DNA of 64,000 nt, taken from the NCBI RefSeq assembly GCF_003418935.1, contig NZ_QVMT01000003.1, forward strand, positions 434,001 to 498,000, written 5' to 3'. Shown here in pieces: positions 42,699-57,837 of this stretch (its first letter is position 1; each line of letters opens with the position of its first letter). The notes under the pieces were generated by a model. That model saw only the letters and a program-made list of their open reading frames with translations, ran no database searches and had not been told where the DNA came from. Source of the DNA: Emticicia sp. C21. Lineage in GTDB: Bacteria; Bacteroidota; Bacteroidia; Cytophagales; Spirosomataceae. Made by a program: the position numbers and the translations under genes.

Positions 42699-43346
42699 AT
42701 GCCCATCAGAATCCTCATTGTAGACGACCATCAGATTTTATTGGATAGCCTGTCCCTCTTAATTTCTTCTATTCCGAACATGGAAGTGGTCGGTACCTTA
42801 TACGACAGCCGGAAAGTACCGGATTTCTTAGAAAACAATGAAATTGATATACTGGTTAGCGATATGAATATGCCTTATCTGACCGGCATAGACCTCACAC
42901 TTAAAGTCCGTAACCATTATCCGAATCTGAAAATTCTGATGCTGACTGTCAACGACGAGGCCGAGAATATCCGCCATGCGTTTCAGGCAGGTATATCGGG
43001 TTATGTGACCAAAAAAGCCAATCGTTCAGAACTGGAAAAAGCGCTTACTACTATAGCTAAAGGGGAAAAGTATTTCAGTGAAGCGGTGCTGAAAGAACTG
43101 CTGACACCCGTCTCGATGAGTGCCAGTCCAATCGAAGAAATACAGCCTGAACCCAAAGCCCTCACCCTGCGTGAATTGGAAATAGTAAAGCTGATTGCAC
43201 AGGAATTATCCTCTTCTCAAATCGCCGACCGACTGTTTATCAGTGTAGGTACGGTAGAAAATCATCGACACAATATTTTGCAGAAACTGGGTGTGAAAAA
43301 TACCATTGGTATCATCAAATATGCTATTAAGTATCGCCTCATTTAA
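42699..43346 (+). CDS. NarL/FixJ-type response regulator
   Basis: A 215-residue response regulator. The receiver has the acidic pair Asp9/Asp10, phospho-acceptor Asp55 (LVSDMNMPYLTG) and KK after VT. The C-terminal LuxR/GerE helix-turn-helix is LTLRELEIVKLIAQELSSSQIADRLFIS, then VGTVENHRHNI. The stop region overlaps by 4 bp the stop of the convergent histidine-kinase gene, its probable partner. Candidate binding boxes for a NarL-type protein occur upstream of the kinase gene (45329-45368) and of the signalling cluster (47942-47982). Confidence 0.93.
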   Translation: MPIRILIVDDHQILLDSLSLLISSIPNMEVVGTLYDSRKVPDFLENNEIDILVSDMNMPYLTGIDLTLKVRNHYPNLKILMLTVNDEAENIRHAFQAGISGYVTKKANRSELEKALTTIAKGEKYFSEAVLKELLTPVSMSASPIEEIQPEPKALTLRELEIVKLIAQELSSSQIADRLFISVGTVENHRHNILQKLGVKNTIGIIKYAIKYRLI

Positions 43347-45214
43347 AGTGTAACATCAACCTGTACATTGGTGCCATGCGTGCTTTGGCGGGTTATCTGC
43401 ACCCGTCCGTTCAGATTATCTACCCGTGAATGCACATTCCGTAAGCCTACACCATTGGCGGTCTGTTTTATATCTATTCCCTTGCCGTTGTCTGATACCG
43501 TGAGCGAGATCCGGTCGTCTTGTTGTGTCAGGCTTACCCATGCCTGTGTAGCCTGGGCATGTTTCAGAATATTGTTAATCAGTTCTAAGGCAATATTGTA
43601 GAGTTCATGTTCCAGTTGAGGTTCAAGCCGATGAGTAATACCCTCGGTCAGGAAATGGAAACCTATATGGCGGTTGGAAATATTATTCAGTAGCTTTTGT
43701 AGTGCCACCACCAGCCCTTGCGTTTCTAGTTCGGCAGGCAAAAGGTTATGCGAAATGAGCCGGACATCCATATAAATATCATCCAGAACCTTGACGAAAT
43801 CTGATAATATTTTCTGGTCTTGCTCACTGTATTTCGAGGTGTCCAGAGCTTCAAAGCGCCATTTCAGAGCTACTATTTTGGTATTCAGGTTATCATGGAG
43901 CTCAGACGCGACCCGTTTCCGTTCGATGGTCTGGCCTTTAAACATGGCACCCGAAATCTCATCGTTTTTGGCTTTTAGTTCTTCATTCTTGGTTTTTAGC
44001 TGCTTATTATTCCAGAATACATAGCCTACCAAACCTAAGCCTAAAAGCAGGCTGGCAATGAGTGTATTCCTTATCCACTCATCACGTTCATTGGCACGTT
44101 TCAGGTTTTCGTTTTCAAGGGTTTTTATCTGGTTTTTCTGCTTTTCGTCTTCATATTTCACCTGCCATTCACCAAAGTTCTGATTCAGTTTTCGAGTTTC
44201 GGCTTCATCTTCGTATTGCTTCACTTTTTCTAAATAAGTAAAAGCTTTAGCCGGTTGGTTGAGTGCTTTGTAGGTCTGGTATAAGGTTTTGTTCAGCGCA
44301 TTGTTATAATAAGGAAAATTGAGAAAGTTGGCGTTTTGCTCGCCCATTAAAGATAGTTGCAGGGCATTTTGGTAATCTTTCTTTTCCAGATAATATCGCC
44401 CCACAAAAGCCCCGATCTGGCTTAGTACATACTTAGCTTCGTTGAGTGATTTATTCTGTTGGCACACGGCAATTATTTCATCCAGCATTGTCCGGCCTTC
44501 TTGTTCTTTCCCCATATTCAGCAAACTCAGGCTTTGGCCTAGTTTACTGATATAATAATAATCGAACCAGTCGCGGCGGTTTTTCTTTTCTATCAGTTGT
44601 ATCACCTCTCCGGCATTGCGGTAGCATTCCTTGTAGTCTTTCAATACAAAAATATAATATCCGGCCAGTGTGATCTGGATATTGGCCCAAACTGCCGTGT
44701 CTTTCTTGACTTGCGGCATAGCCAAAGCATCTTTGATGTATTGCAGGTAACGCTGTTGTCCTTCTTTCGGAATCTGATTTTCAATCATATTCCAGTTCAT
44801 GAGCGGAATAAATTTGTTATTGACCTTGAGGTAATGCTCGTAGTCTTTCTGTTGCTTAAAAGCCAGCATAGCCCGTTCTAAATCATAAAAGGCGGCATAG
44901 AGTTCGTTGGTGAACAGGTGCATAGTGCCACTCATGAAATTATAGTGTGCCCGGGCTTTGCTCCATTGGGTAGTTTCCAAGATTTGCTGAAAGTCTTTTT
45001 TCAGGCGATTATAGGCGGCGGTATCTCCTTTAGGTACTTCGTATGTCAGGTCTCTGAGAACCAGTATCATTAATGAATCTCTTTTGATGGAAGCCTTTTG
45101 CGTACGTAGTTTTTCAAAAGTTGTGGTAAGAGAGTCAAGGGTTTTATTAGCAGTTTGTGCTGATAGTAGGTGGCAGGTGAAGCAGTATAGTATCAGAAGA
45201 ATGGCTCTTGGCAT
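43343..45214 (-). CDS. TPR-containing HisKA_3 sensor histidine kinase
   Basis: A 623-residue NarX/DegS-type kinase. A signal peptide (MPRAILLILYCFTCHLLSAQ) is followed by an exported helical region with TPR-like repeats (about residues 60-340, for example YYNNALNKTLYQTYKALNQP), a coiled coil, one membrane helix (NTLIASLLLGLGLVGYVFW), and a cytosolic HisKA_3 domain with RKRVASELHDNLNTKI bearing the phospho-accepting His. The HATPase has ELINNILKHA and VSDNGKGID. It is convergent with the NarL-type regulator gene. Its promoter region carries paired palindromic boxes, suggesting control by that regulator. Confidence 0.92.
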   Translation of the reverse strand: MPRAILLILYCFTCHLLSAQTANKTLDSLTTTFEKLRTQKASIKRDSLMILVLRDLTYEVPKGDTAAYNRLKKDFQQILETTQWSKARAHYNFMSGTMHLFTNELYAAFYDLERAMLAFKQQKDYEHYLKVNNKFIPLMNWNMIENQIPKEGQQRYLQYIKDALAMPQVKKDTAVWANIQITLAGYYIFVLKDYKECYRNAGEVIQLIEKKNRRDWFDYYYISKLGQSLSLLNMGKEQEGRTMLDEIIAVCQQNKSLNEAKYVLSQIGAFVGRYYLEKKDYQNALQLSLMGEQNANFLNFPYYNNALNKTLYQTYKALNQPAKAFTYLEKVKQYEDEAETRKLNQNFGEWQVKYEDEKQKNQIKTLENENLKRANERDEWIRNTLIASLLLGLGLVGYVFWNNKQLKTKNEELKAKNDEISGAMFKGQTIERKRVASELHDNLNTKIVALKWRFEALDTSKYSEQDQKILSDFVKVLDDIYMDVRLISHNLLPAELETQGLVVALQKLLNNISNRHIGFHFLTEGITHRLEPQLEHELYNIALELINNILKHAQATQAWVSLTQQDDRISLTVSDNGKGIDIKQTANGVGLRNVHSRVDNLNGRVQITRQSTHGTNVQVDVTL

Positions 45215-45281: not shown

Positions 45282-45313
45282 AAAAGATACAACCCAAAAG
45301 CCTTTATATCCAA
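45282..45313 (-). promoter_or_regulatory. Candidate promoter of the NarX-type kinase gene
   Basis: On the minus strand TTG (45313-45311), 21 bp, then TATCTTTT (45289-45282, 7 of 8 to TAnnTTTG). About 68 bp before the start codon. Confidence 0.45.
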
Positions 45314-45328
45314 GTGCTTAGTGCAAAA

Positions 45329-45368
45329 TGTAGGTTTCCCTACAGGAGTAAATACAGGGTTTCCTGTA
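45329..45368. promoter_or_regulatory. Paired palindromic boxes, probable response-regulator operator
   Basis: TGTAGGTTTCCCTACA (45329-45344) and TACAGGGTTTCCTGTA (45353-45368). Each has 6-bp inverted arms around 4 bp, and the two starts are 24 bp apart, just upstream of the kinase promoter. The first box is identical to the one at 47942. Confidence 0.65.
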
Positions 45369-45689
45369 CATAAAATATTCGGTTTTGCAGAGTATAAGTA
45401 TTAGTTATGGGTAATATTTTGTAGAAAGGTATAGTATTCGGATGCCAACGAAAGAGATTTATAAAACTTATTTTGCAGACAGGAAATAAGTTACAACTTT
45501 CTTATAGATTTGTTTAGGATGATTTCTTTTCTTTAAAATGTATTGTTGTGGCTGCGTCTGCATCAAATGAAAGCCTGAATAGGAGGCATCCGCATGAAGA
45601 ATAGCTTAACAGTATGAATATTCTAAAAACCTGCCTGAAGACTTTGAAAACACAAACTTAAGTAGGAAATTTATTGGTTTATGTCTGAT

Positions 45690-45999
45690 TACCTGCCACG
45701 AAAATGGAATTGAAAAAAGTAGACAATATAGTGACTGCCTTTTTGAACAAGGAGAGAGCTTTCCAGCTATCAGCCACGAAAGCAGCATCAGAAAAGGTTA
45801 CCAATACGGGGGGAACCTTTTTGAATGAGGTGCAGAGAACTTTCCAGCTATCAACCACGAAAACGGCATCAGAAAAGGTTACCAATACGGGGGGAACCTT
45901 TTTGAACAGTGGCAGAGACCTTTCCAGCTATCAACCACGAAAGCAGCATCAGAAAAGGTTACCAATACGGGGGGAACCTTTTTGAATGAGGGTAGATAG
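45690..45999. repeat. Tandem repeat array, unit about 80 bp
   Basis: Three nearly identical units begin TTTCCAGCTATCA at 45760, 45841 and 45921 (periods 81 and 80). Each contains CCACGAAA, GCATCAGAAAAGGTTACC, AATACGGGGGGAACC and TTTTTGAA. A diverged fourth unit precedes them (45690-45757). Changes among the units are few, so the array is recent or kept uniform. Confidence 0.8.
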
Positions 46000-46077
46000 G
46001 TTCGAGATTATCTAAGTAATGAAAATCCTGAACAACTTATATTTAAGCATCAGTAGTTATTCCTGAAATTATTTAAA

Positions 46078-46529
46078 ATGGACAGGTCAGCATTAGAACA
46101 ACATGAAACCTATATGCGTATTTGTATAGACCTTGCTAAAATGGCTAAGCAAAGGGGAGATAGCCCCGTAGGTTCAATAATCGTACAGAATGGTAGTATT
46201 ATTGGTAAAGGAATTGAGGGCGGGAAAACGCATAAAGACATTACTTTTCATGCCGAAATAGAAGCCATACGCGAGGCTACCAGACATCTTGGTAAACAAG
46301 ATTTATCTGATTGTATACTATATACCACACATGAGCCATGTATAATGTGTTCGTATATGATACGACATACAAAATTCCATTCATTGTAACCGGACTTACC
46401 ACAGGCGACATTGGTGGGTTTAGTTCTCAATTACCTTTATTACTTGATACCACCATTAAAAAGTGGGCTGCGCCACCGCGCTTAATCAATGGTATATTGG
46501 AAAAAGAATGTAGGGAGTTGAGTAAGTAG
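46078..46529 (+). pseudogene. Nucleoside/tRNA-type deaminase split by a one-base frameshift
   Basis: The first frame encodes a zinc-dependent cytidine-deaminase-fold protein with the HAE motif (FHAEIEAI) and the PCxxC motif (THEPCIMCSYMI), then ends early as HTKFHSL. The missing C-terminal part continues in another frame as IPFIVTGLTTGDIGGFSSQLPLLL to LEKECREL. One extra A in the run of four A residues at 46371-46374 would restore a normal protein of about 150 residues. The reaction would be hydrolytic deamination of guanine, cytosine or a related base; guanine-deaminase-like members end similarly. Either a recent pseudogene or a sequencing error in a homopolymer. Confidence 0.8.
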
Positions 46530-46802
46530 CTAAGAAAGTAATTAAAAAATGACAAAGACCGACCAATCAAAACACAATATCTGTGTAGCTGCTATCAGGA
46601 GAAAAACGATGAAGCCATACGACTTTAAATGGACAAAGTTTTATGAGTATAATGCAGAGTTTCCTTATTCAGCACTTCAATGAACTAGTTTTTTACAATA
46701 AATCTGCCTTCATTACCTCCTTAAAACTCCTCCATTTTTCTCTTTTTGGGCAATATATATGGCATGGCATGACTTTTTAATCATCTGGGATTATAAAGAT
46801 TT

Positions 46803-47702
46803 ATGACGAATATGAGACTTATTCAAATCGCAATCGTGCTGTGTTTTTTTGCGGCTGGTTGCAATAATCAACAAAAACAACGCAATATGGAGACACAGGA
46901 AAAGAGCGAGGTAACTCAAACAACCACTGCCGTTTCAAAAGACGGTACCGCTATCGCTTATGAAAAAACCGGACAAGGGCCTGCCATTATTCTGGTGAAT
47001 GGTGCTTTGTCTGACCGCAAAACCTACGACCAGACAGGTTGGACCAGCATGCTTGCAAAAAACTTCACCGTAATTATTTACGACCGACGAGGCCGGGGTG
47101 AAAGCACGGATACAAAACCGTATGATGCAGAACGGGAAATTGAAGATATCAAAGCCCTTATAGATATAGCCGGAGGTAGCGCGTATTTATTTGGCTCATC
47201 CAGTGGTGCTGCCTTGTCGCTTCTTGCTGCCGAAAAACTTGGGCCTGAAAAAGTAACCAAACTGGCACTCTATGAACCGCCCTACGGGTCTAACGTCAAA
47301 AAAGAGTTTGCTAAGCAGAAAATTAAGGTAAACGAGTTGGTAGATGATGGCAAACCTGCTGATGCCATTGCTTTCTTTATGGAAAGTCTGGGAACACCGC
47401 CTGACCAACTGGAAGGAATGAAGAAATCGCCACAGTGGGATGGCATGGTAAGCATGGGGCATACGCTTGTATATGATTTTGAGGTTTTGAGAGATGGGGA
47501 AGTGCCTAAGGATGTGGCAAAAAATATAACTATCCCAACACTGGTAATGAATGGTGAAAAGAGTTTTGATTTCATGGCTGCCACTGCAGATACTGTTGCG
47601 GAAGCTATTCCGGGCGCTCAGCGTAAAACTATCAAAGGACAAACGCATAATCCTTCTCCCGAATCAGTTGTGCCGGTATTGGTAGAATTTTTTGGTAAGT
47701 AG
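46803..47702 (+). CDS. Lipoprotein alpha/beta hydrolase
   Basis: A 299-residue hydrolase. The N terminus is a lipoprotein signal (Cys20 after CFFAAG), which is rare for alpha/beta hydrolases, followed by a Gln/Thr-rich linker. The hydrolase domain runs from AIAYEKTGQGPAIILVNGA. The nucleophile elbow is FGSSSGA with Ser133. The oxyanion segment is VNGALSD and the catalytic His is likely in KGQTHNPS near residue 291. YDRRGRGES is the typical strand-4 turn. Substrate unknown; the enzyme is probably attached to the periplasmic face of a membrane. A hairpin follows at 47733. Confidence 0.9.
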   Translation: MTNMRLIQIAIVLCFFAAGCNNQQKQRNMETQEKSEVTQTTTAVSKDGTAIAYEKTGQGPAIILVNGALSDRKTYDQTGWTSMLAKNFTVIIYDRRGRGESTDTKPYDAEREIEDIKALIDIAGGSAYLFGSSSGAALSLLAAEKLGPEKVTKLALYEPPYGSNVKKEFAKQKIKVNELVDDGKPADAIAFFMESLGTPPDQLEGMKKSPQWDGMVSMGHTLVYDFEVLRDGEVPKDVAKNITIPTLVMNGEKSFDFMAATADTVAEAIPGAQRKTIKGQTHNPSPESVVPVLVEFFGK

Positions 47703-47732
47703 GCATCTGAATTAATATATTATTTGTTGACA

Positions 47733-47778
47733 ATCTCTTTCAGAAATAGTTTAGCACAAGCCTATTTCTGAAAGAGAT
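47733..47778 (+). terminator. Hairpin after the hydrolase gene
   Basis: Perfect 17-bp stem ATCTCTTTCAGAAATAG / CTATTTCTGAAAGAGAT, 12-base loop, 31 bp after the stop. It lacks a T tract, so termination is probable but not certain. Confidence 0.6.
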
Positions 47779-47941
47779 ATGGACGATTTGCTGAACCACA
47801 GGATGCTCCATGGAATGATTGATGGCATACCCAATAACCTCGACCAAGGTAACTGCTCAGTTGTAAAGTACTCACCGTGCTACGAGACTGCTTAATCACT
47901 AATTCTCTGCATTCACCAGATCACTCAATACTACTCCTATC

Positions 47942-47982
47942 TGTAGGTTTCCCTACATATAAAAAATATAGGTTTCCCTACC
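47942..47982. promoter_or_regulatory. Paired palindromic boxes ahead of the signalling cluster
   Basis: TGTAGGTTTCCCTACA (47942-47957) and TATAGGTTTCCCTACC (47967-47982), 25 bp apart. The first is identical over 16 bp to the box at 45329. They end about 47 bp before the -7 element TAATTTTG at 48029. Confidence 0.65.
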
Positions 47983-48028
47983 CCCAAAATGTAGACTATT
48001 GCAGATTTACAGGTGTTGGTATTAGCCA

Positions 48029-48036
48029 TAATTTTG
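48029..48036 (+). promoter_or_regulatory. -7 promoter element of the signalling cluster
   Basis: TAATTTTG matches TAnnTTTG exactly, 47 bp before the ATG at 48083. No good TTG lies at -33 (only TTTAC at 48006), as expected for a promoter that needs an activator. Confidence 0.5.
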
Positions 48037-48082: not shown

Positions 48083-49381
48083 ATGAAACCCCAGCATACG
48101 ACCCCAACCGAAACTACCGAAGATGATGGATTCTGGACAATACTGTACGATATTATTCAAAAGCACCCAATGATTTTTACGTTGCTGTTTCTGATACCAT
48201 TGATTGCCCTGCTGATTTCTATGGCTTTTAAATGGCATTATGTATTCAGTGATTCGATGCACTATCTGTCTGATTATTCGGTAGTGAATGGTCAATGGAA
48301 TGATACCAGCGCGTACTTCAGCCCGGGTATTGACCGCTATATCAGAGAACTGGATATTGCCGGATTAATGGGGGGGATTGTAGGTATTTTTATTGGGTTA
48401 TATGTAGCAGTATCGACCGAGAAAATCAATCGCCAGAAAGAGCGTACCAACCAACAGGATATGGAGCGCATCAAAACCCAGACGAGTCTTCTGGTGCAAG
48501 CTACCCAATCTTTAAACACCTTAATGATTGATGTAAGTGGCAAAGTAAGCGAAAAAGTGCAATTGATGGAGGGTACAACTGAGTTACTGGATGGTATCTC
48601 GAAAGTAATAGAATCTTCAAAAAACCAGGGAAATAACTTATTGGTCTTATCAAATACGGCTCGCATTGAGGGCATCTCACCTTACAGAATGGAATACGTT
48701 GCCAAACATGCCGGATTAAAACCCCATGAACTGAAAAACGCCACCCAGTTCGACTATGCCCGCAAAGCCGAGGCCTTACAGCGTGATTCTACCGATGTAG
48801 AGAATAAACTGAAAGAAGTATCTATCTATCTGCAAAATATGGGTAGCGAAGCAAAAGTAGAATACGTAACTCTCAACGACCAGAGCGAGGGTGCTACCCA
48901 TGCTTTTCTGAAATATTTAGGCAAGGTTTTCAACGAGCATGTAGTAGTAGAAACTTACCGTAGTGGAAGCAATGCGGTCTTGAATAGCCTGGAGGGCACA
49001 CCTCACCATAACCGTTTTTTAGTGCCAAGCAGTACGGCAGAGGTTGATAATCCACAGGCATATCTGGTTCGGCAATTGTATGACCAACAGGTGCAAGCCA
49101 TTAAGGAAATGCAGGAATTGGGTATCAGAGTCACTAAAATCAATAAAACCCTGCCGATTCAGTTGTTTATTTCGGCACCGTTAGAAAACAAACCGGGTAT
49201 TTATAAAGGATTGTGCGTGTGTATTCTGGGCAGTGGCTCCAGCACTAGCGGAAGAGCTTCAAAACTAACGGCATTCCTGACAGATGACCCACATATTGTG
49301 GCATCAATGACTGAGTTATTCTACGATTATGAGAATGATGCGCAGATGAATACGAAGGAGTTTATTCGGCCGATGGCGTAG
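48083..49381 (+). CDS. Membrane protein of unknown function, head of the signalling cluster
   Basis: A 432-residue protein of no recognised family. Two membrane helices are evident (MIFTLLFLIPLIALLISMAF, residues 30-49; LMGGIVGIFIGLYVAVS, about 96-112), with a 45-residue loop between them (HYVFSDSMHYLSDYSVVN), so both ends probably face the cytosol. A coiled-coil stretch follows (INRQKERTNQQDMERIKTQT, then VSEKVQLMEGTTELLDGISK). The last 250 residues look like a folded alpha/beta domain (AKVEYVTLNDQSEGATHAFL, NRFLVPSSTAEVD, PIQLFISAPLENKPGIYKGLCVCILG) of unknown kind. First gene after the paired boxes, hence likely the lead gene of the cluster. Confidence 0.75.
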   Translation: MKPQHTTPTETTEDDGFWTILYDIIQKHPMIFTLLFLIPLIALLISMAFKWHYVFSDSMHYLSDYSVVNGQWNDTSAYFSPGIDRYIRELDIAGLMGGIVGIFIGLYVAVSTEKINRQKERTNQQDMERIKTQTSLLVQATQSLNTLMIDVSGKVSEKVQLMEGTTELLDGISKVIESSKNQGNNLLVLSNTARIEGISPYRMEYVAKHAGLKPHELKNATQFDYARKAEALQRDSTDVENKLKEVSIYLQNMGSEAKVEYVTLNDQSEGATHAFLKYLGKVFNEHVVVETYRSGSNAVLNSLEGTPHHNRFLVPSSTAEVDNPQAYLVRQLYDQQVQAIKEMQELGIRVTKINKTLPIQLFISAPLENKPGIYKGLCVCILGSGSSTSGRASKLTAFLTDDPHIVASMTELFYDYENDAQMNTKEFIRPMA

Positions 49382-49559: not shown

Positions 49560-51341
49560 ATGAACACCCTCCATATATTAAAAAAACTATTCCCTTTCAT
49601 CCGGAAATACCGTGGGAGCCTGATACTGGCGCTGGTGCTGACAACAATCGGTGCATTGCTTTCGCAGGTGACACCTTTGGTGATGGAGTACTCAGTGAAT
49701 ACGGTGCAAGCCATGCTCGACAAGCCGGTTGACAAGGAACGTATATTTGTAATCGTTGGTACACTGGTGGCTATTTTATTAGGTAAAGAAATATTGAGCT
49801 TACTAATAACTTTAGGGCAGAAGTTTCTGAGCGACCGCATTCGTTTTCGTATGTCAGGTGATTTATATGATTATACTATTAACCGAATTACAAATTATCA
49901 TCTATCGTTTTTTGCCTTGTCGCAAAACCAGACTGGAAAACTCGAAAAACGTATTGATAAGGGCATTGAAAGTCTGACCAAAACTGTAAAGAATATATTT
50001 GTAGATATTCTGCCGATGCTGGCCAATGCCGCTTTCGCACTGCTGTTGATTTATAAAAAGAATGTGTGGGTGGGGCTGGTAGCCACCATTATTCTGCCTT
50101 GCTATATCTATATCAGCAGGGAGCAGACACTCCGGCAGAAGAGTATCCGCCACAACATTCAATATGTAAGAGAAGAGAAAGCCAATTCATTATTTGGATT
50201 ATTGGAGTCGATTTTTGTGGTGAAATCTTTTGTACGGGAGAAGTATGAAACGGGTCGTCAGCAGGGCATCAATCTTAGATTGACCGAAAATGAAATAAAG
50301 CACCACCGTACCAATTACCTGTTTGATGGACTGAAAAGTATTGCTGAGCAATTGGGAGTTGTGATGGTGTTTACCTTAACGATTTTCTTCGTATTAAATA
50401 AAGAAATGACGGTTGGGGCTATTCTCCTGCACATTATGTTATTCAACAATGTATCGTCGCCTGTGCGTCATTTGCATCGCATTTATGATGAATATACCGA
50501 GGCTTTGACCTACTCTGAGGGCTTTTTTGATATGATAGAGAACAATACCTATTTATCGAAAAAAGGTGGAATAACCACAGAGCATCTGCAGGGCAATTTC
50601 AGTTTTCAGGACGTAGATTTTATTTATCCGAATGGCAAGCAAGCCTTAAAAAACGTGAGTTTTGAACTGAAACATGGCAAGACCACGGCACTGGTTGGGT
50701 TATCAGGCGCAGGTAAAAGCTCAGCCATGAATCTACTGGCAGGTTTCTATGAGCCAACCAAGGGGAAGGTATTACTAGATGATAAATCATTGGCCGATTA
50801 TGATAGCGATTTCGTTCGTGAAAACATCGGGCTGGTAATGCAGAAAAACCATATTTTCTCAGGCACTATTGAAGAAAATATCCGCTATGGCGATTTAACT
50901 GCCACCCGTGAAGCCATTGAAGAAGCTGCAAAAAAAGCCAGTCTGCACGACCAGATACAACGTATGCCGAATGGTTATGATACGCAGGCCCGAGAACTTT
51001 CAGGTGGACAGCAACAGCGCATTGCCATTGCCCGATTGTTCCTTAAAAATCCGCCGATTATCTTTTTAGATGAACCTACGGCGAGCCTCGATGCCATCAC
51101 CACCGAGCAGATTAAAGAAAGTATTGATGCTGTGAAACATAACCGAACCGTCTTGATTATCTCTCATAATATCAGCCAGATTATGGACGCCGACCATATC
51201 TATGTGCTGAGCGAGGGCGAGGTAGTCGGGCATGGTACACATGAGTCGCTGTATAAAGAAGGCGGCTTATATAGCCAGATTATTGACTCTAATGCAAGAA
51301 CCCTCAACATTGGTCGCCTTGCGGCAACGGTGTTGGGGTAA
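49560..51341 (+). CDS. ABC exporter half-transporter (membrane plus ATPase)
   Basis: A 593-residue fused exporter subunit that should act as a homodimer in the inner membrane. A type-I exporter membrane domain with six helices covers residues about 18-300, then the ATPase domain: Walker A GLSGAGKS (380-387), Q-loop Gln428, signature LSGGQ (480-484), Walker B IIFLDE (500-505), and H-loop His in IISHN. This is MsbA/lipid-A-exporter-like in layout, but substrate classes cannot be separated by sequence reading. It has no peptidase or signal. Position inside a kinase-protease cluster suggests that export and signalling are connected; that is inference. Confidence 0.93.
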
Positions 51342-51621: not shown

Positions 51622-53313
51622 ATGAGCACCACAGTACAAAATTTTGTCATCCGCCATATTGCGGGTGCAAAGGCTAACCAGATTGAAGAATTCGATTTTC
51701 AGAAACATAGCGAACTGACCCTCGGGCGTGCCAGCACCAGCGATGTGCAGTTTGACCCTGATTTAGACACAGTTGTGAGCCGTGAACACGGCAAAATCGT
51801 GAAGGATTCAAGCGGCCCGCTCTCGTTTATGCTGATTGATAACAATAGCCGCAATGGCATAATGGTGAACAAAATCAAGGTAAAAGGCTCTACAAAATTA
51901 TTCCCTGGCGATGAAATCCAGTTGGGTAATAACGGTCCGGTTTTCGTATTCGACCTTGATCCTCGTCCGCAGGAATTTATGCCGCAGACTCGTATGGTAG
52001 ACATCAGCAAACCTACTACCGAGTTTCTTCCGAGTGAGGTAGCTAATACGGCCAATACTGGGAAAACAGGCATTGGTAAACAGACTTTTGAGCGCGTAAT
52101 TACACACGAACGCAAAAAATCGCAGCGTATGTTGTGGACGGGCTTAGCTGCTGCCATAGTATTAGTGAGTGCCGTTAGTTTTATTGTCTGGAAAAATGGA
52201 CAGGATAAAAATGACGAAATGGCTCAGCAAATGGGCAATGCTACCAAGCAGTTAGATTCGCTCAGAAATGCGGTTTCTATTAAACAACAGAGAGGCGAAG
52301 CATTATCGCCGGAAGAAATCGTAGCAGCCAATCAGGATAAAGTCGTGAAAATTGAATTTGGCTGGCAATTATTTGACCCAAGTACAAGCGATGAAATCTG
52401 GCATGTATATATTCCGATGAAAATGCAGGATGGTAGTGAGCGTTACGTGGCAGCTTATCAGCAGAACTCACAAGGTAGAATTGAGCCTTATCTGAATACC
52501 AAAAGAAACGTATCGATGGGAGTACCAATCGGTATGTCAGGTGCTTCTGGTTCAGGTTTTGTCGTATCAGAATCGGGCTTTATTTTGACAAACCGTCATG
52601 TGGCAGCTTCATGGAATACAGGTTTCTCGTTTCCTGAATATGCTTTCCCGGGTGTGCTGTTAGATGCCCAAGGCAAAGTAACCAATCAGATGATTTCGGC
52701 CGGAGATGTCTATGGCTGGGTGCCATCAGAGGCCTCTATGCTGGGTGGAAGATCACTTAATTCAAGAGTTGAGGGCCGTAATACTTATCTGAAAGTAACC
52801 TTTGCCAATAATGTTTTGCGCCGTAATGCTACCGTTGAGGCAGTATCAGACAACCACGATGCCGCCATGATTAAAGTAGCGATGCCGGGCAAACTGGCAA
52901 GTGTAGAACTACTGGATAATTATGACGACATCAAAGCCGGGCAAGCCGTTACGGTAATGGGATATCCGGGAGTAGCGCCTGAACAATACGTGGTGCGTAA
53001 ATCAAGTGACCCATTCAAACCAAATACAGATTTCAACTCTGTACCATCACCAACGGTTACACCTGGTAATATCGGTCGCCTGATTAAGAGTTCAGCAGAT
53101 AAAACAAACTTATACAGCACCTTTGGCGATTCCTATCAATTGACCATCAACGCCACTGGAGGCGGCAATAGTGGTGGCCCGATGTTCGACGATAAGGGCC
53201 GTGTAATCGGTATCTACTACGCAGGCAAAAGCGATGCCCGCGGCACCCAGATTTCATTCGCCGTTCCGATTAAGTATGGGATGGAGTTGATGGGGAATAC
53301 GAAGGTGCTTTAG
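51622..53313 (+). CDS. Membrane-anchored FHA domain - trypsin-like serine protease
   Basis: A 563-residue fusion. The N-terminal FHA domain (residues 20-112) keeps the phosphothreonine-binding residues: Gly35-Arg36, Ser53-x-x-His56, Asn78-Gly79. A linker leads to one membrane helix (LWTGLAAAIVLVSAVSFIVW, 171-190) with basic residues before it, so the FHA part is cytosolic and the remainder periplasmic. The C-terminal domain is a trypsin/DegP-like protease with the full triad: His326 (LTNRHVAAS), Asp413 (NHDAAMIKVA), Ser517 (GGGNSGGPMF). No PDZ domain. A phosphorylated protein bound inside could therefore control proteolysis outside. The two kinases encoded downstream are the obvious sources of that phosphate. 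Confidence 0.92.
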   Translation: MSTTVQNFVIRHIAGAKANQIEEFDFQKHSELTLGRASTSDVQFDPDLDTVVSREHGKIVKDSSGPLSFMLIDNNSRNGIMVNKIKVKGSTKLFPGDEIQLGNNGPVFVFDLDPRPQEFMPQTRMVDISKPTTEFLPSEVANTANTGKTGIGKQTFERVITHERKKSQRMLWTGLAAAIVLVSAVSFIVWKNGQDKNDEMAQQMGNATKQLDSLRNAVSIKQQRGEALSPEEIVAANQDKVVKIEFGWQLFDPSTSDEIWHVYIPMKMQDGSERYVAAYQQNSQGRIEPYLNTKRNVSMGVPIGMSGASGSGFVVSESGFILTNRHVAASWNTGFSFPEYAFPGVLLDAQGKVTNQMISAGDVYGWVPSEASMLGGRSLNSRVEGRNTYLKVTFANNVLRRNATVEAVSDNHDAAMIKVAMPGKLASVELLDNYDDIKAGQAVTVMGYPGVAPEQYVVRKSSDPFKPNTDFNSVPSPTVTPGNIGRLIKSSADKTNLYSTFGDSYQLTINATGGGNSGGPMFDDKGRVIGIYYAGKSDARGTQISFAVPIKYGMELMGNTKVL

Positions 53314-53460: not shown

Positions 53461-54312
53461 ATGCAAGAGCCATTTTTAAATAAGAATATCAGAGGATACA
53501 TACTCACGCAGTGGTTAGGCTCGGGTGGGATGGGAGAGGTATATCAGGCACAACATCAAAGTACTCGTCAGACTGCTGCTGTAAAAGTATTGAACCGTAT
53601 TGATCAGGTAGAAAGATTCCGGAATGAAGCCTATGTGCAATCGTCGGTGAAGCACCCCAATATTGCGGCACTCTACGAATATTCAGTCGAAAATGGGATT
53701 CCTTGCATTGTGATGGAATATGTAGAGGGGCTGACACTCGAAAGACTTATTAAAAGACAAGGCGCATTACCTGAAACCTTTGTCTGGAAGGTACTGGAAC
53801 AAATGGCTGCAGCGGTAGCGCACCTACATGCCAATACGATTTTTCATCGGGATCTGAAACCTGCCAATATCAAAGTAACTAAAGAGAGTCTGGTCAAACT
53901 ACTTGATTTCGGGATTGCCAAAGCCGCTTATACACCCAAACTCACGCAAGAGGGATATATCGTCGGAACATCCTATTACATGGCCCCGGAACAATTTCAT
54001 GGCAAGGGCCATATACAGTCGGACTGTTGGGCGTTAGGGGTAATTCTCTATGAAATGTTAACCGGACAGTTGCCCTTTGATGGCAGGACAGAAACCGAAA
54101 CCCGCATCAAAATAGAGCGTGGCGAGTACATGGCGCCCAATCTCATTAATCCGCATGTATCAAAAAAGAGCAAGCGGCTGATAGAGAAACTATTGCAGCA
54201 TAACCCCAAAAAACGCATGACAGCCGAGGGTTTGTTGAGCGAATTGAGGGGGGAGAGTGATGGGAATAATCTATTTGGTAGGGTGAGTGATTGGGTTAGG
54301 AATGCGTTTTGA
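53461..54312 (+). CDS. Serine/threonine protein kinase, soluble
   Basis: A 283-residue Hanks-type kinase with no membrane helix. Motifs: Gly-rich loop GSGGMGEVY (20-28), Lys42 (AVKVL), Glu56, catalytic HRDLKPANI (129-137), DFG (149-151), APE (175-177), and the C-lobe Asp in SDCWALGV. The short tail after the kinase domain (NNLFGRVSDWVRNAF) is amphipathic and might contact a membrane or a partner. Placed between the FHA protease and the PP2C phosphatase, it should phosphorylate targets of both. Confidence 0.94.
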   Translation: MQEPFLNKNIRGYILTQWLGSGGMGEVYQAQHQSTRQTAAVKVLNRIDQVERFRNEAYVQSSVKHPNIAALYEYSVENGIPCIVMEYVEGLTLERLIKRQGALPETFVWKVLEQMAAAVAHLHANTIFHRDLKPANIKVTKESLVKLLDFGIAKAAYTPKLTQEGYIVGTSYYMAPEQFHGKGHIQSDCWALGVILYEMLTGQLPFDGRTETETRIKIERGEYMAPNLINPHVSKKSKRLIEKLLQHNPKKRMTAEGLLSELRGESDGNNLFGRVSDWVRNAF

Positions 54313-54518: not shown

Positions 54519-55379
54519 ATGTTTTGGAAAAAATGGTTATCAGGAGGCGAGCCTAAGCCTACAGAAGAACACTCCATCAAAGAAGAAGATTTGAGGGCGG
54601 TGGTGGTAACCGATGTAGGGCGCGTACGCACCAACAACGAAGATGCGGCCCGGTTTGTACGTCCGTCGAAAATTCTGGTGAGAATACAGAAAGGCTTCTT
54701 AGCCATTGTGGCAGATGGTATGGGTGGACACGCCGCCGGAGAAATTGCCTCGCAAATGGCTGTTGAAACCATTGCCAAAGCTTATTATCAACAAGAAGAT
54801 ACACCAGAGCCAAGTTTATTTGTGGCTTTTGCTAAAGCCAACAGGGCTATCTGGCAAACGGCAAATAAAAATGTGATGCAAAAAGGGATGGGTACTACGT
54901 GCACGGCTGTTGCCATTTGCCAGAACAGGCTGTATATGGCACATGTAGGCGACAGTCGTCTGTACCTGTTCAAAGATGGTCAGCTGATTCAGTTATCAAC
55001 CGACCATACCTACGTGCAGGAACTGCTACAACAGGGGGTAATTTCGACAGATGAGGCCGAAAAACACCCTGACCGTAATATGCTGACAAGGGCGATGGGC
55101 ACGCATAATAAAGTAGAAGTAGATGTACAGGCTATTTCGACCTTGTTTGAAAATAACGACAGGTTGATGCTTTGTAGTGACGGTCTCTACGACTATTTCA
55201 GCCCGGCTGAGATTGCCACTTTTCTAACGATTCCTACCCTGAATGAAGCGGCACAACAAATGGTAGATGCCGCCAAACAACGTGGAGGCCACGATAATAT
55301 AACGGTGCTGTTGGTGGAGAAAGTGAACCCCGAGGAGTTTCAGCCCGCTAAACCTACCGAAAACATTGACATACCATGA
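54519..55379 (+). CDS. PP2C-family serine/threonine phosphatase
   Basis: A 286-residue PPM/PP2C phosphatase, cytosolic, expected to reverse the kinases' action with Mn/Mg. Motifs: TDVGRVRTNNEDAARF (31-46), VADGMGGHAAGEIAS (64-78, metal-binding Asp66), GTTCTA (125-130), HVGDSRLYL (142-150), LCSDGLYDYF (218-227) and GGHDNITVL (256-264). All metal ligands seem present. Its stop overlaps the start of the next kinase gene by 4 bp (ATGA), so phosphatase and kinase are translationally coupled, probably in near-equal amounts. Confidence 0.94.
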   Translation: MFWKKWLSGGEPKPTEEHSIKEEDLRAVVVTDVGRVRTNNEDAARFVRPSKILVRIQKGFLAIVADGMGGHAAGEIASQMAVETIAKAYYQQEDTPEPSLFVAFAKANRAIWQTANKNVMQKGMGTTCTAVAICQNRLYMAHVGDSRLYLFKDGQLIQLSTDHTYVQELLQQGVISTDEAEKHPDRNMLTRAMGTHNKVEVDVQAISTLFENNDRLMLCSDGLYDYFSPAEIATFLTIPTLNEAAQQMVDAAKQRGGHDNITVLLVEKVNPEEFQPAKPTENIDIP

Positions 55380-57184
55380 TAGGCCAGAAGATACAAAACT
55401 ATAATGTAGAAGAGCTACTGGGCGAGGGGGGCATGGGAACCGTCTATCGGGCTACTGATACGCTTTTGCAACGCTCGGTGGCTGTCAAGATTCTGCATCC
55501 GCATCTGGTTCGTGATACGACTTTCTTTGAGCGTTTCCGTAACGAAGCTATCCTATCTGCCAAGCTCAATCATTCCAATGTCGCTGTTCTCTATAATTTT
55601 CTGAGAGACCGCAATGATAACTTCATGGTGATGGAGTTTGTAGATGGTATGACCTTAGAAAAACTACTGAAACAAAACGGAGGTCTACCCCTGGAATCAG
55701 TCTTGAAAATCATGATGCAAACTTTAGACGGCCTGCACCATGCCCACGAAAAAGGGATTCTGCACCGGGATATTAAGCCTGCCAACCTGATGCTCACCCG
55801 TGAGGGTATTGTGAAACTAATGGATTTTGGTATTGCCCGTATGGTAGGTTCTCAGAGATTGACGAGGGCAGATAGGATTGTAGGAACATTGGAGTATATG
55901 GCACCTGAATTATTAGATGGGAGCGAGCCAAGCGTACAATCAGATCTTTATGCCATTGGGATACTGATGTACGAATTGCTATCTGGCAAAATGCCTTTCG
56001 AAGCTTCAACTGATTCAACATTGATAACGCAGATTCTGACTAAAAAGCCAATTCCTTTGCGTACCCGCATAGGTAATCTGCCAAAAAAGGTGGAAGAGAT
56101 TCTGGATACTTTACTTCAAAAGAAACCAGAAAGAAGATTTGAAAGTGCGGCTGATTTACGGCATATCCTCAGTACTATTGTAACACCGGGTAGAGTAGTG
56201 CCACAAACTTTGCAGCCGAAAAAAGTAGAGGTAAACATTGCCCCTACAGAAATGTACACCAAGGCCAATACCAACCCGACCCGACTGGCCGACCATCGGC
56301 AGCAAAGGGCATCGGGTTCAAATTCTACGGTGGTGCAGACGGTCAGATCCAGGATGCTGTCAACCGAGGGAATGATTCTGGGCGGAGCAGTTCTTGCGGC
56401 CTTGATGATTGTCATTGTGGGGGTATTCTTTATGTCTCCAAAAAAATCTGACAAGAATGAACAGGCTGAGAATTTTATACCAACTACAACTCTGGTGATA
56501 CCCCAGCCTGTTGCTACTACTGATTCTCAAAAAGTCAGCAATAACGATGTAGGCTTTCAGCAACCCTTAGATAAAGTGTTGAATCCAATAGAAAAAAAGG
56601 AGACCAAGCCTAAAGAAACATTACCCATAGACAATAAAGAAAAGACTAAGGACAAAGAGAAAACCAAACAACCTATTGAAAAAAAGGAAGAAGAAAAGAA
56701 GAAAGAAGAGCCTAAACCGACACCATCAGAGCCTATTGCGAAGCAACCTGTTACAGAGCCTGTCAAAGAGCTCGAACCCGTACGGGAAGAGCCTAAAGCC
56801 AAAGTCACTCGCAATGTGACTGTCAGAGGCTTATCGGTAGCGGTGGTATTGGACGAAACCATATCTTCCAACGATCCGGGCATCAAGGGCAAGAGTATCA
56901 ACCTGCGGGTTTTGAGTGATATACGGGTAGATGGAATTGTGGTGATTGCTGCAGGGGCAAGGGCTACTGCCAAAGTAACCAGTGCTCGCTCAAGTGATGC
57001 CGGAAAGTCATTCTTAGAGTTCAGACCCGAGCGGGTACAAGCGGTAAATGGCGATTGGGTATCGCTCAAAAGTCCTGAATTAGGTAAATCAGGGAGTTCT
57101 ACTGAAGCGGTTGTTTTTACAAGGGGGATGCGCATCTTACCCGACCCTAAAACTGCCAACACTATCTTAACTATTACACTATAA
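55376..57184 (+). CDS. Membrane serine/threonine kinase with exported beta-rich domain
   Basis: A 602-residue PknB-like kinase. Kinase domain residues 9-270: GEGGMGTVY (16-24), Lys38, HRDIKPANL (130-138), DFG (150-152), APE (176-178). After a linker comes one membrane helix (EGMILGGAVLAALMIVIVGVFFM, 331-353), then a 115-residue Lys/Glu/Pro-rich stretch that could span the periplasm, and a compact C-terminal beta domain (480-602: VRGLSVAVVLDETISSNDPG, SINLRVLSDIRVDGIVVIAAGARATAKV). That domain replaces the usual PASTA repeats and resembles small beta modules found in secretion- and conjugation-related proteins. Likely reports an envelope signal to the cytosol. Confidence 0.92.
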   Translation: MIGQKIQNYNVEELLGEGGMGTVYRATDTLLQRSVAVKILHPHLVRDTTFFERFRNEAILSAKLNHSNVAVLYNFLRDRNDNFMVMEFVDGMTLEKLLKQNGGLPLESVLKIMMQTLDGLHHAHEKGILHRDIKPANLMLTREGIVKLMDFGIARMVGSQRLTRADRIVGTLEYMAPELLDGSEPSVQSDLYAIGILMYELLSGKMPFEASTDSTLITQILTKKPIPLRTRIGNLPKKVEEILDTLLQKKPERRFESAADLRHILSTIVTPGRVVPQTLQPKKVEVNIAPTEMYTKANTNPTRLADHRQQRASGSNSTVVQTVRSRMLSTEGMILGGAVLAALMIVIVGVFFMSPKKSDKNEQAENFIPTTTLVIPQPVATTDSQKVSNNDVGFQQPLDKVLNPIEKKETKPKETLPIDNKEKTKDKEKTKQPIEKKEEEKKKEEPKPTPSEPIAKQPVTEPVKELEPVREEPKAKVTRNVTVRGLSVAVVLDETISSNDPGIKGKSINLRVLSDIRVDGIVVIAAGARATAKVTSARSSDAGKSFLEFRPERVQAVNGDWVSLKSPELGKSGSSTEAVVFTRGMRILPDPKTANTILTITL

Positions 57185-57204: not shown

Positions 57205-57837
57205 ATGAAAACTATCTTATTGAAAAAATACATAGCCTTTGTATGCATGTGTTCAATCATAAGCTTCTCCTCCCGGGCGCAGGATGCGCTCACGTTGCGT
57301 TCCAATACTGAGGGCTTCCATATCGGTCTGGGGGGCGGGTATAAACACTGGATTTCGTCTTATTTTAATCAATTAGACGAACTGGAGCCCACAGGTATCG
57401 GTGGCGGTCTTAATCTTGGCTTTGGCATCACGCAGCATATAGAACTGTTTGCTACACTCGATTACCATACCTTTAAATTTAAAAACGATTGGGACGACTA
57501 CGGTATGACGATTGTAGGCGTAGGAACCCGTTATAATTTTGGAGGTACCCTACAAAAGGTAAGACCTTACGCTGAATTAGCCTATAATTATCAGTATCTG
57601 GTGGTTGATCCTGTACAACTGAATGGACAATTGTTTAAATATGAACTGAGTGGTGGTGCCCTCTCATTGGGTGGTGGAGTGAATTTCTTTGTCAGCCCAA
57701 GATTCGCCATTAATCTTAAAGCAGGAGCCAATTTAGGCAAATTCAATAGCTTTCTCTTAAACGAAAACGGCATAGAAGATCGCCCTGACGTAAAGACTTT
57801 TCAGTTTGGCATTGGGTTAAATTATTTTTTTAATTAG
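57205..57837 (+). CDS. Outer-membrane beta-barrel protein (porin-like, OmpX/OmpW type)
   Basis: A 210-residue exported protein, signal peptide MKTILLKKYIAFVCMCSIIS to SSRAQ. The mature part alternates in strands typical of an eight-strand barrel (FHIGLGGGYKHWIS, GIGGGLNLGFGITQHIELFATLDYHTF, YGMTIVGVGTRYNFG, FAINLKAGANLG) and ends with the aromatic FQFGIGLNYFFN expected for outer-membrane insertion. It begins 20 bp after the membrane kinase gene, the tightest non-overlapping junction in the cluster, so it may be the envelope component sensed by or regulated with that kinase. Confidence 0.88.
   Translation: MKTILLKKYIAFVCMCSIISFSSRAQDALTLRSNTEGFHIGLGGGYKHWISSYFNQLDELEPTGIGGGLNLGFGITQHIELFATLDYHTFKFKNDWDDYGMTIVGVGTRYNFGGTLQKVRPYAELAYNYQYLVVDPVQLNGQLFKYELSGGALSLGGGVNFFVSPRFAINLKAGANLGKFNSFLLNENGIEDRPDVKTFQFGIGLNYFFN

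Follow-up and report, generated by a model that had tools for sequence, protein, structure and literature searches.

Paired palindromic boxes as predicted operators of a NarL-type regulator upstream of a sensor kinase gene and a Ser/Thr phosphorylation cluster in Emticicia and other Spirosomataceae

NarL sites have a 7-2-7 geometry, and at ogt, which has two sites, one of these abuts the -35 element (PMC7419079); the E. coli NarL heptamer is TACYYMT (PMC4886647). Two-component regulators have also been tied to eukaryotic-type kinases and phosphatases, as with VraR (NarL-type) of S. aureus and DosR of M. tuberculosis, both of which are response regulators modified by Ser/Thr kinases (PMC4601284). 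The locus described here, in a 64,000-nucleotide stretch of the Emticicia sp. C21 genome (the window), is comparable with both systems, as a regulator of the NarL family appears to be tied through its predicted operators to a cluster of Ser/Thr kinase and phosphatase genes. The direction of the tie differs, however: for VraR and DosR the Ser/Thr kinase phosphorylates the regulator, whereas in this locus it is the kinase genes whose transcription the regulator is predicted to control. The genes concerned are the following.

42699..43346, plus strand: NarL-type response regulator (PF00072 and PF00196), candidate binder of the boxes
43343..45214, minus strand: histidine kinase (PF07730 and PF02518), convergent with the regulator gene and under the first box pair
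48083..49381, plus strand: membrane protein heading the cluster, with orthologs found
49560..51341, plus strand: ABC transporter (membrane and ATPase parts), by domain match
51622..53313, plus strand: FHA domain and trypsin-like protease, by domain match
53461..54312, plus strand: Ser/Thr protein kinase, by domain match
54519..55379, plus strand: PP2C phosphatase, by domain match
55376..57184, plus strand: Ser/Thr protein kinase with extracytoplasmic C-terminus, by domain match, topology read from the sequence
57205..57837, plus strand: outer-membrane beta-barrel protein, by domain match

Pfam searches identified a Response_reg domain (PF00072, 86.9 bits) and a GerE/LuxR helix-turn-helix (PF00196, 59.7 bits) in the 42699 protein, which thus has the NarL/FixJ arrangement of a receiver and a C-terminal GerE/LuxR HTH, with a phospho-acceptor Asp conserved where its SDMNMP aligns with LDLNMP of NarL. 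Its best solved relative is E. coli NarL (1a04), its recognition helix reads TVENHRHN, and its orthologs form a single clade (support 96/92); about 69 matches to this regulator superfamily occur in the same Emticicia genome. The kinase is of the HisKA_3/NarX type, with HisKA_3 (PF07730, 31.4 bits) containing the ELHD motif (ELHDNL) and HATPase_c (PF02518, 51.9 bits), and differs from the nitrate sensor of E. coli in its N-terminus, which reads as a helical-repeat region with one TM. In Dyadobacter and Runella (L126-L132), a single regulator lies opposite two or three neighbouring TPR-type histidine kinases, which suggests several sensors per regulator in these genera.

The membrane protein heading the cluster had no significant family in domain searches (Pfam, NCBIfam), with all matches to CoV_NSP6 or other Pfam families sub-threshold, and its AlphaFold model was poor (pLDDT 46). 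We did not adopt an anti-phage defence reading of the cluster, as the PADLOC and NCBIfam matches were to generic kinase and ABC proteins and fell below the cut-off where one exists. The cluster kinases matched the PADLOC models PD-T4-6 and MAD6, yet they matched 35 models each, and scored 171-182 against the NCBIfam MAD6 cut-off of 460; the ABC protein matched part of mad3, and the membrane protein matched no PADLOC model.

Two pairs of palindromic boxes lie upstream of the kinase gene and of the membrane-protein gene.

45329..45344, no strand assigned: kinase-side box 1, TGTAGGTTTCCCTACA, pairs also found in E. agri and Emticicia sp. BO119
45353..45368, no strand assigned: kinase-side box 2, TACAGGGTTTCCTGTA, starting 24 bp after box 1
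47942..47957, no strand assigned: cluster-side box 1, TGTAGGTTTCCCTACA, kept in orthologs
47967..47982, no strand assigned: cluster-side box 2, TATAGGTTTCCCTACC, starting 25 bp after box 1

The preliminary description of this DNA had reported two exact copies of the first box, each followed 24-25 bp on by a related one, at about 100-115 bp from the start codons and with no further copy in the window. Both copies are exact, the second boxes lie at +24 and +25, the distances measured 115 bp (kinase, start 45214) and 100 bp (membrane protein, start 48083), and the rarity extends to the whole 6.64-Mb genome, in which these are the only two exact 16-mers. Allowing up to three mismatches to the 16-mer gave 3 matches in the window vs 0.45 expected, and the degenerate pattern TRYAGG-N4-CCTRYA gave three 12/12 sites, all within these pairs, together with an 11/12 partner. 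Pairs of this pattern at 22-26 bp spacing occurred in none of 60 mononucleotide shuffles of the window. A paired-box pattern search recovered the kinase-side pair alone, since box 2 on the cluster side has C as its last letter. No good box was present before the regulator gene, where the best promoter site matched the pattern at 10/12.

Like the NarL/NarP operators of E. coli, the boxes are 16-bp inverted repeats of two 7-bp elements 2 bp apart, a form seen in about 40 promoters, and are arranged as tandem sites of which one abuts the -35/-33 region, next to a regulator of the same family; the half-site can even begin with TAC, as in TACAGG. The specificity of E. coli NarL (TACYYMT) was not found, as the half-site is TRYAGGK-like, with a core of AGGT/GGTT rather than YYMT, and has only the TAC start and the final T in some copies. 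The shared 7-2-7 geometry with other core letters thus points to a NarL-like operator rather than to E. coli NarL specificity. The locus further differs from E. coli NarL in the spacing of its sites (23-25 bp rather than 33), in its Bacteroidota -7/-33 promoter and in its target, a Ser/Thr-kinase cluster.

The boxes had been described as lying just upstream of candidate -33/-7 promoters, which was borne out, but the rigid composite layout of these promoters had been missed. The promoter elements are as follows.

47990..48005, plus strand: proximal half-site, TGTAGACTATTGCAGA, a third, half-conserved site 23 bp after cluster-side box 2, abutting the -33 region
48029..48036, plus strand: -7 element of the cluster promoter, TAATTTTG, in register 39 bp after the half-site start
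45282..45289, minus strand: likely kinase-promoter -7, TATCTTTT, kept in two Emticicia relatives

The Bacteroidota housekeeping promoter has the -7 consensus TAnnTTTG together with a TTTG-like -33 (PMC7366714), and alignment of boxed promoters on the -7 element revealed one or two 7-2-7 palindromes, the second in many promoters 24-26 bp after the first, followed by the proximal half-site and then the -7 element. The first T of the half-site, AAATGTAGG..TTtC.GGATTtac, lies 39 bp before TAnnTTTG, a distance identical in two-site and three-site promoters, and the register was kept in 23 of the 24 aligned promoters; the one miss was the Arundinibacter FHA promoter, for which the script failed to pick the -7 element. 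The -33 element is weak in most boxed promoters, reading TTTAC rather than TTG in many, and the cluster promoter follows the same scheme, as TAATTTTG fits the consensus at the fixed distance from the sites and the -33 is weak, with the transcription start predicted from these elements. On sequence grounds this is the promoter-abutting (class II) geometry, with a site next to the -33 at a constant 39 bp from the -7.

When 21 genomes carrying the cluster were scanned for a box followed by the half-site, 26 exact matches were found, and in 25 of these TTTG stood in the predicted register, which argues against a random placement of the boxes. Composite matches elsewhere on the chromosomes preceded genes for DUF3592-like small membrane proteins (counting one-mismatch matches, two pass the Pfam cut-off and one falls short) and for a secreted protein, adding candidates to the predicted regulon in Spirosoma, Larkinella and Rhabdobacter (L304-L312). 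As the full layout stands before unrelated genes, descent from a single ancestral promoter does not account for it. The composite matches before the kinases of Emticicia sp. BO119 and of a NarL-type paralog (hereafter the C12 paralog) are oriented away from the kinase. In E. agri and BO119 the kinase-side pair also lies within an outward composite promoter directed at the cluster, consisting of TACAGGGTTTCCTGTA, a half-site at +23 and a -7 element at +62 (L040 10066-10135); the window holds only a remnant of it (45353-45421), with ATATTTTG at 45414-45421, 1 bp out of register.

Conservation was followed through orthologs of the membrane protein on 24 named contigs, nearly all from Spirosomataceae, in seven named genera (Emticicia, Spirosoma, Larkinella, Rhabdobacter, Dyadobacter, Runella, and Arundinibacter). 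The expectation that the boxes would be conserved in relatives was upheld: counting the window itself, 23 of 25 loci had a full 12/12 box at 97-194 bp before the membrane-protein gene (22 of these among the 24 contigs), and the FHA-protease gene had a full box of its own in 18 of the 19 genomes searched; the counted genomes are related, and these counts are therefore not independent. The Emticicia FHA gene (51622 in the window) has no box of its own while other genera have one, and it is probably dependent on the upstream promoter of the cluster. The box was absent from the membrane-protein and kinase promoters of Arundinibacter.

The arrangement of the locus varies among these genomes. All parts, from regulator and kinase to the two box pairs and the cluster, lie together in E. 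agri, with a kinase-to-cluster gap of only about 430 bp, whereas genes are inserted in this interval in the window and it reaches about 16 kb in BO119. The insertion in the window contains three tandem 80-bp units (45753-45992, 91% matches) and a cytidine/dCMP deaminase ORF (46078-46529) that stops at 46389, with the likely C-terminal part continuing in another frame; it looks frameshifted, or reflects a sequencing error. Larkinella and Rhabdobacter carry the cluster in two parts on separate contigs, one with the membrane protein, ABC and kinase genes and the other with the FHA, phosphatase, kinase and barrel genes adjoining the regulator and its histidine kinase. Both halves are boxed, so their common box cannot be put down to linkage. 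These split loci and the register in unrelated promoters are the strongest points in favor of the predicted operators.

The 42699 regulator had been named as the candidate binder, and its distribution agrees with this. Among 24 family genomes checked, an ortholog (at least 60% identity) was present in all 6 with the cluster and absent from all 18 without it, where the best match was 57%. Of the 19 genomes reached through the cluster, 18 also had it, the exception being a Gemmatimonadaceae MAG (63% GC) that served, with the caveat that it is a MAG, as a case of cluster without regulator; its membrane-protein and FHA promoters both had no box. The cluster relatives in this MAG (L124, L155) include a membrane protein 72% identical, and a transfer between phyla is possible; misbinning was considered, and the 63% GC gives it no support. 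Co-occurrence, the boxes at the kinase promoter and the related boxes at related TPR-kinase/NarL pairs all point to the 42699 protein as the likely binder.

We consider it highly probable that the boxes are operators of the 42699 protein, bound by tandem dimers, from which the phosphorylated regulator would activate both the cluster and its own kinase gene; the paired boxes are in all likelihood genuine binding sites, common to soil and water Spirosomataceae. One dimer would occupy each 16-bp palindrome, and two or three sites 23-25 bp apart would load dimers side by side, the last of them on the degenerate half-site abutting the weak -33 element. The sensor kinase would phosphorylate the regulator, leading to binding, and the bound regulator would contact polymerase from the half-site at about -43, activating transcription of the membrane-protein/ABC/FHA-protease/Ser-Thr-kinase/PP2C cluster. 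Activation of the kinase gene itself would constitute positive feedback. In the kinase promoter the distance from the sites down to the -7 element is about 16 bp greater than in the cluster promoter, and the -33 is better (a -33-like CTTGG at 45310-45314), so the feedback may use another contact, and kinase autoregulation may differ in mode from activation of the cluster. The earlier suggestion of a second phospho-relay above the Ser/Thr cluster would then be right in the sense of transcriptional control.

The sign of the predicted effect is open to an opposite reading, in which the regulator binds and represses and kinase signalling lifts the repression of the cluster, as a site abutting the -33 could block polymerase as well. 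We regard this as unlikely, given that the sites lie wholly upstream of the -7 element, in a constant 39-bp register and with a poor -33, as expected for activation from about -43, and that NarL at ogt activates from -44.5 (PMC7419079). Slightly less probable still is that the boxes are bound mainly by another regulator, the likeliest being the C12 paralog (C12:272040, on contig C12, 56% identical), or by this paralog and the 42699 protein as a cross-regulating pair. Its kinase is preceded by the near-identical box TACAGGTTTTCCTGTA, so that cross-binding is possible, and the recognition-helix motif HRHN is common to the two proteins; the paralog clade is, however, separate from the 42699 ortholog clade, which is the one the box tracks across the family. 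Furthermore, the cluster boxes of Emticicia are centred on TTTC/GAAA, with arms that are mostly TGTAGG/TATAGG, which sets them apart from the box of the paralog, and a T-to-N change in the recognition helix occurs only in the Emticicia 42699 orthologs. In BO119 (L320 7078-7117) a mixed pair of TACAGGTTTTCCTGTA and TCACGGTTTACCGTGA, 24 bp apart, gives the impression of one promoter serving two paralogous regulators.

A role of the palindromes as RNA (GNRA-like hairpins, an attenuator) or as a mobile or REP-type repeat is highly improbable. One strand would read UGUAGG-GAAA-CCUACA, a 6-bp stem with a GAAA loop, but the predicted transcription starts lie downstream of the boxes, which places these outside the mRNA, and the loop becomes TTTT/AAAA in other genera while the arms stay constant. 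The Emticicia genome has no exact copies away from the two promoters, and the RNA-element reading was rejected on the position of the sites and the lack of any Rfam match.

With the 42699 protein as the predicted binder, its paralogs may bear on how such operators are recognized. The base contacts of NarL are made by K188, V189 and K192. Paralogous TPR-kinase/NarL pairs of the Spirosomataceae share the frame T-xyz-GG-N4-CC-z'y'x'-A, in many cases as two copies 22-25 bp apart before the kinase gene, and differ in the half-site letters (TACAGG, TCATGG, TCACGG), with TACAGG-CCTGTA before related kinases at five loci, TCATGG-CCATGA at about six and TCACGG-CCGTGA at three. At the position aligned to K192, regulators paired with xxAGG boxes have H, those with TCATGG boxes R and those with TCACGG boxes K, and Emticicia alone combines N for T earlier in the helix (V189) with TTTC/GAAA box centres. 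We tentatively propose, at somewhat less than even confidence, a family-wide operator code for Bacteroidota TPR-kinase/NarL pairs, in which the middle letters would be set by a few recognition-helix residues (H to xxAGG, R to TCATGG, K to TCACGG, and V189 T-to-N with the Emticicia shift). As the independent events are few and no box was found for some regulators with R or K at the K192 position, the match of residues to letters is a lead and not a law. NarL-type ORFs of 63-99 aa with the DNA-binding domain only and no receiver were also seen beside kinases with TCATGG boxes (L086 14315-14614; L089 3565-3768; L208 1698-1889; L214 1830-2021; L316 5734-5931).

A limited literature search found no operator described for such Bacteroidota TPR-kinase/NarL regulators, which are numerous as kinase pairs in these genomes. 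The predicted operators would tie an unstudied aspartate-phosphorylation pathway to a Ser/Thr cluster and provide base-level operator predictions in the seven named genera, some of which have cultured strains. If the code is true, the operators and regulons of many uncharacterised sensor pairs would be readable from sequence alone.
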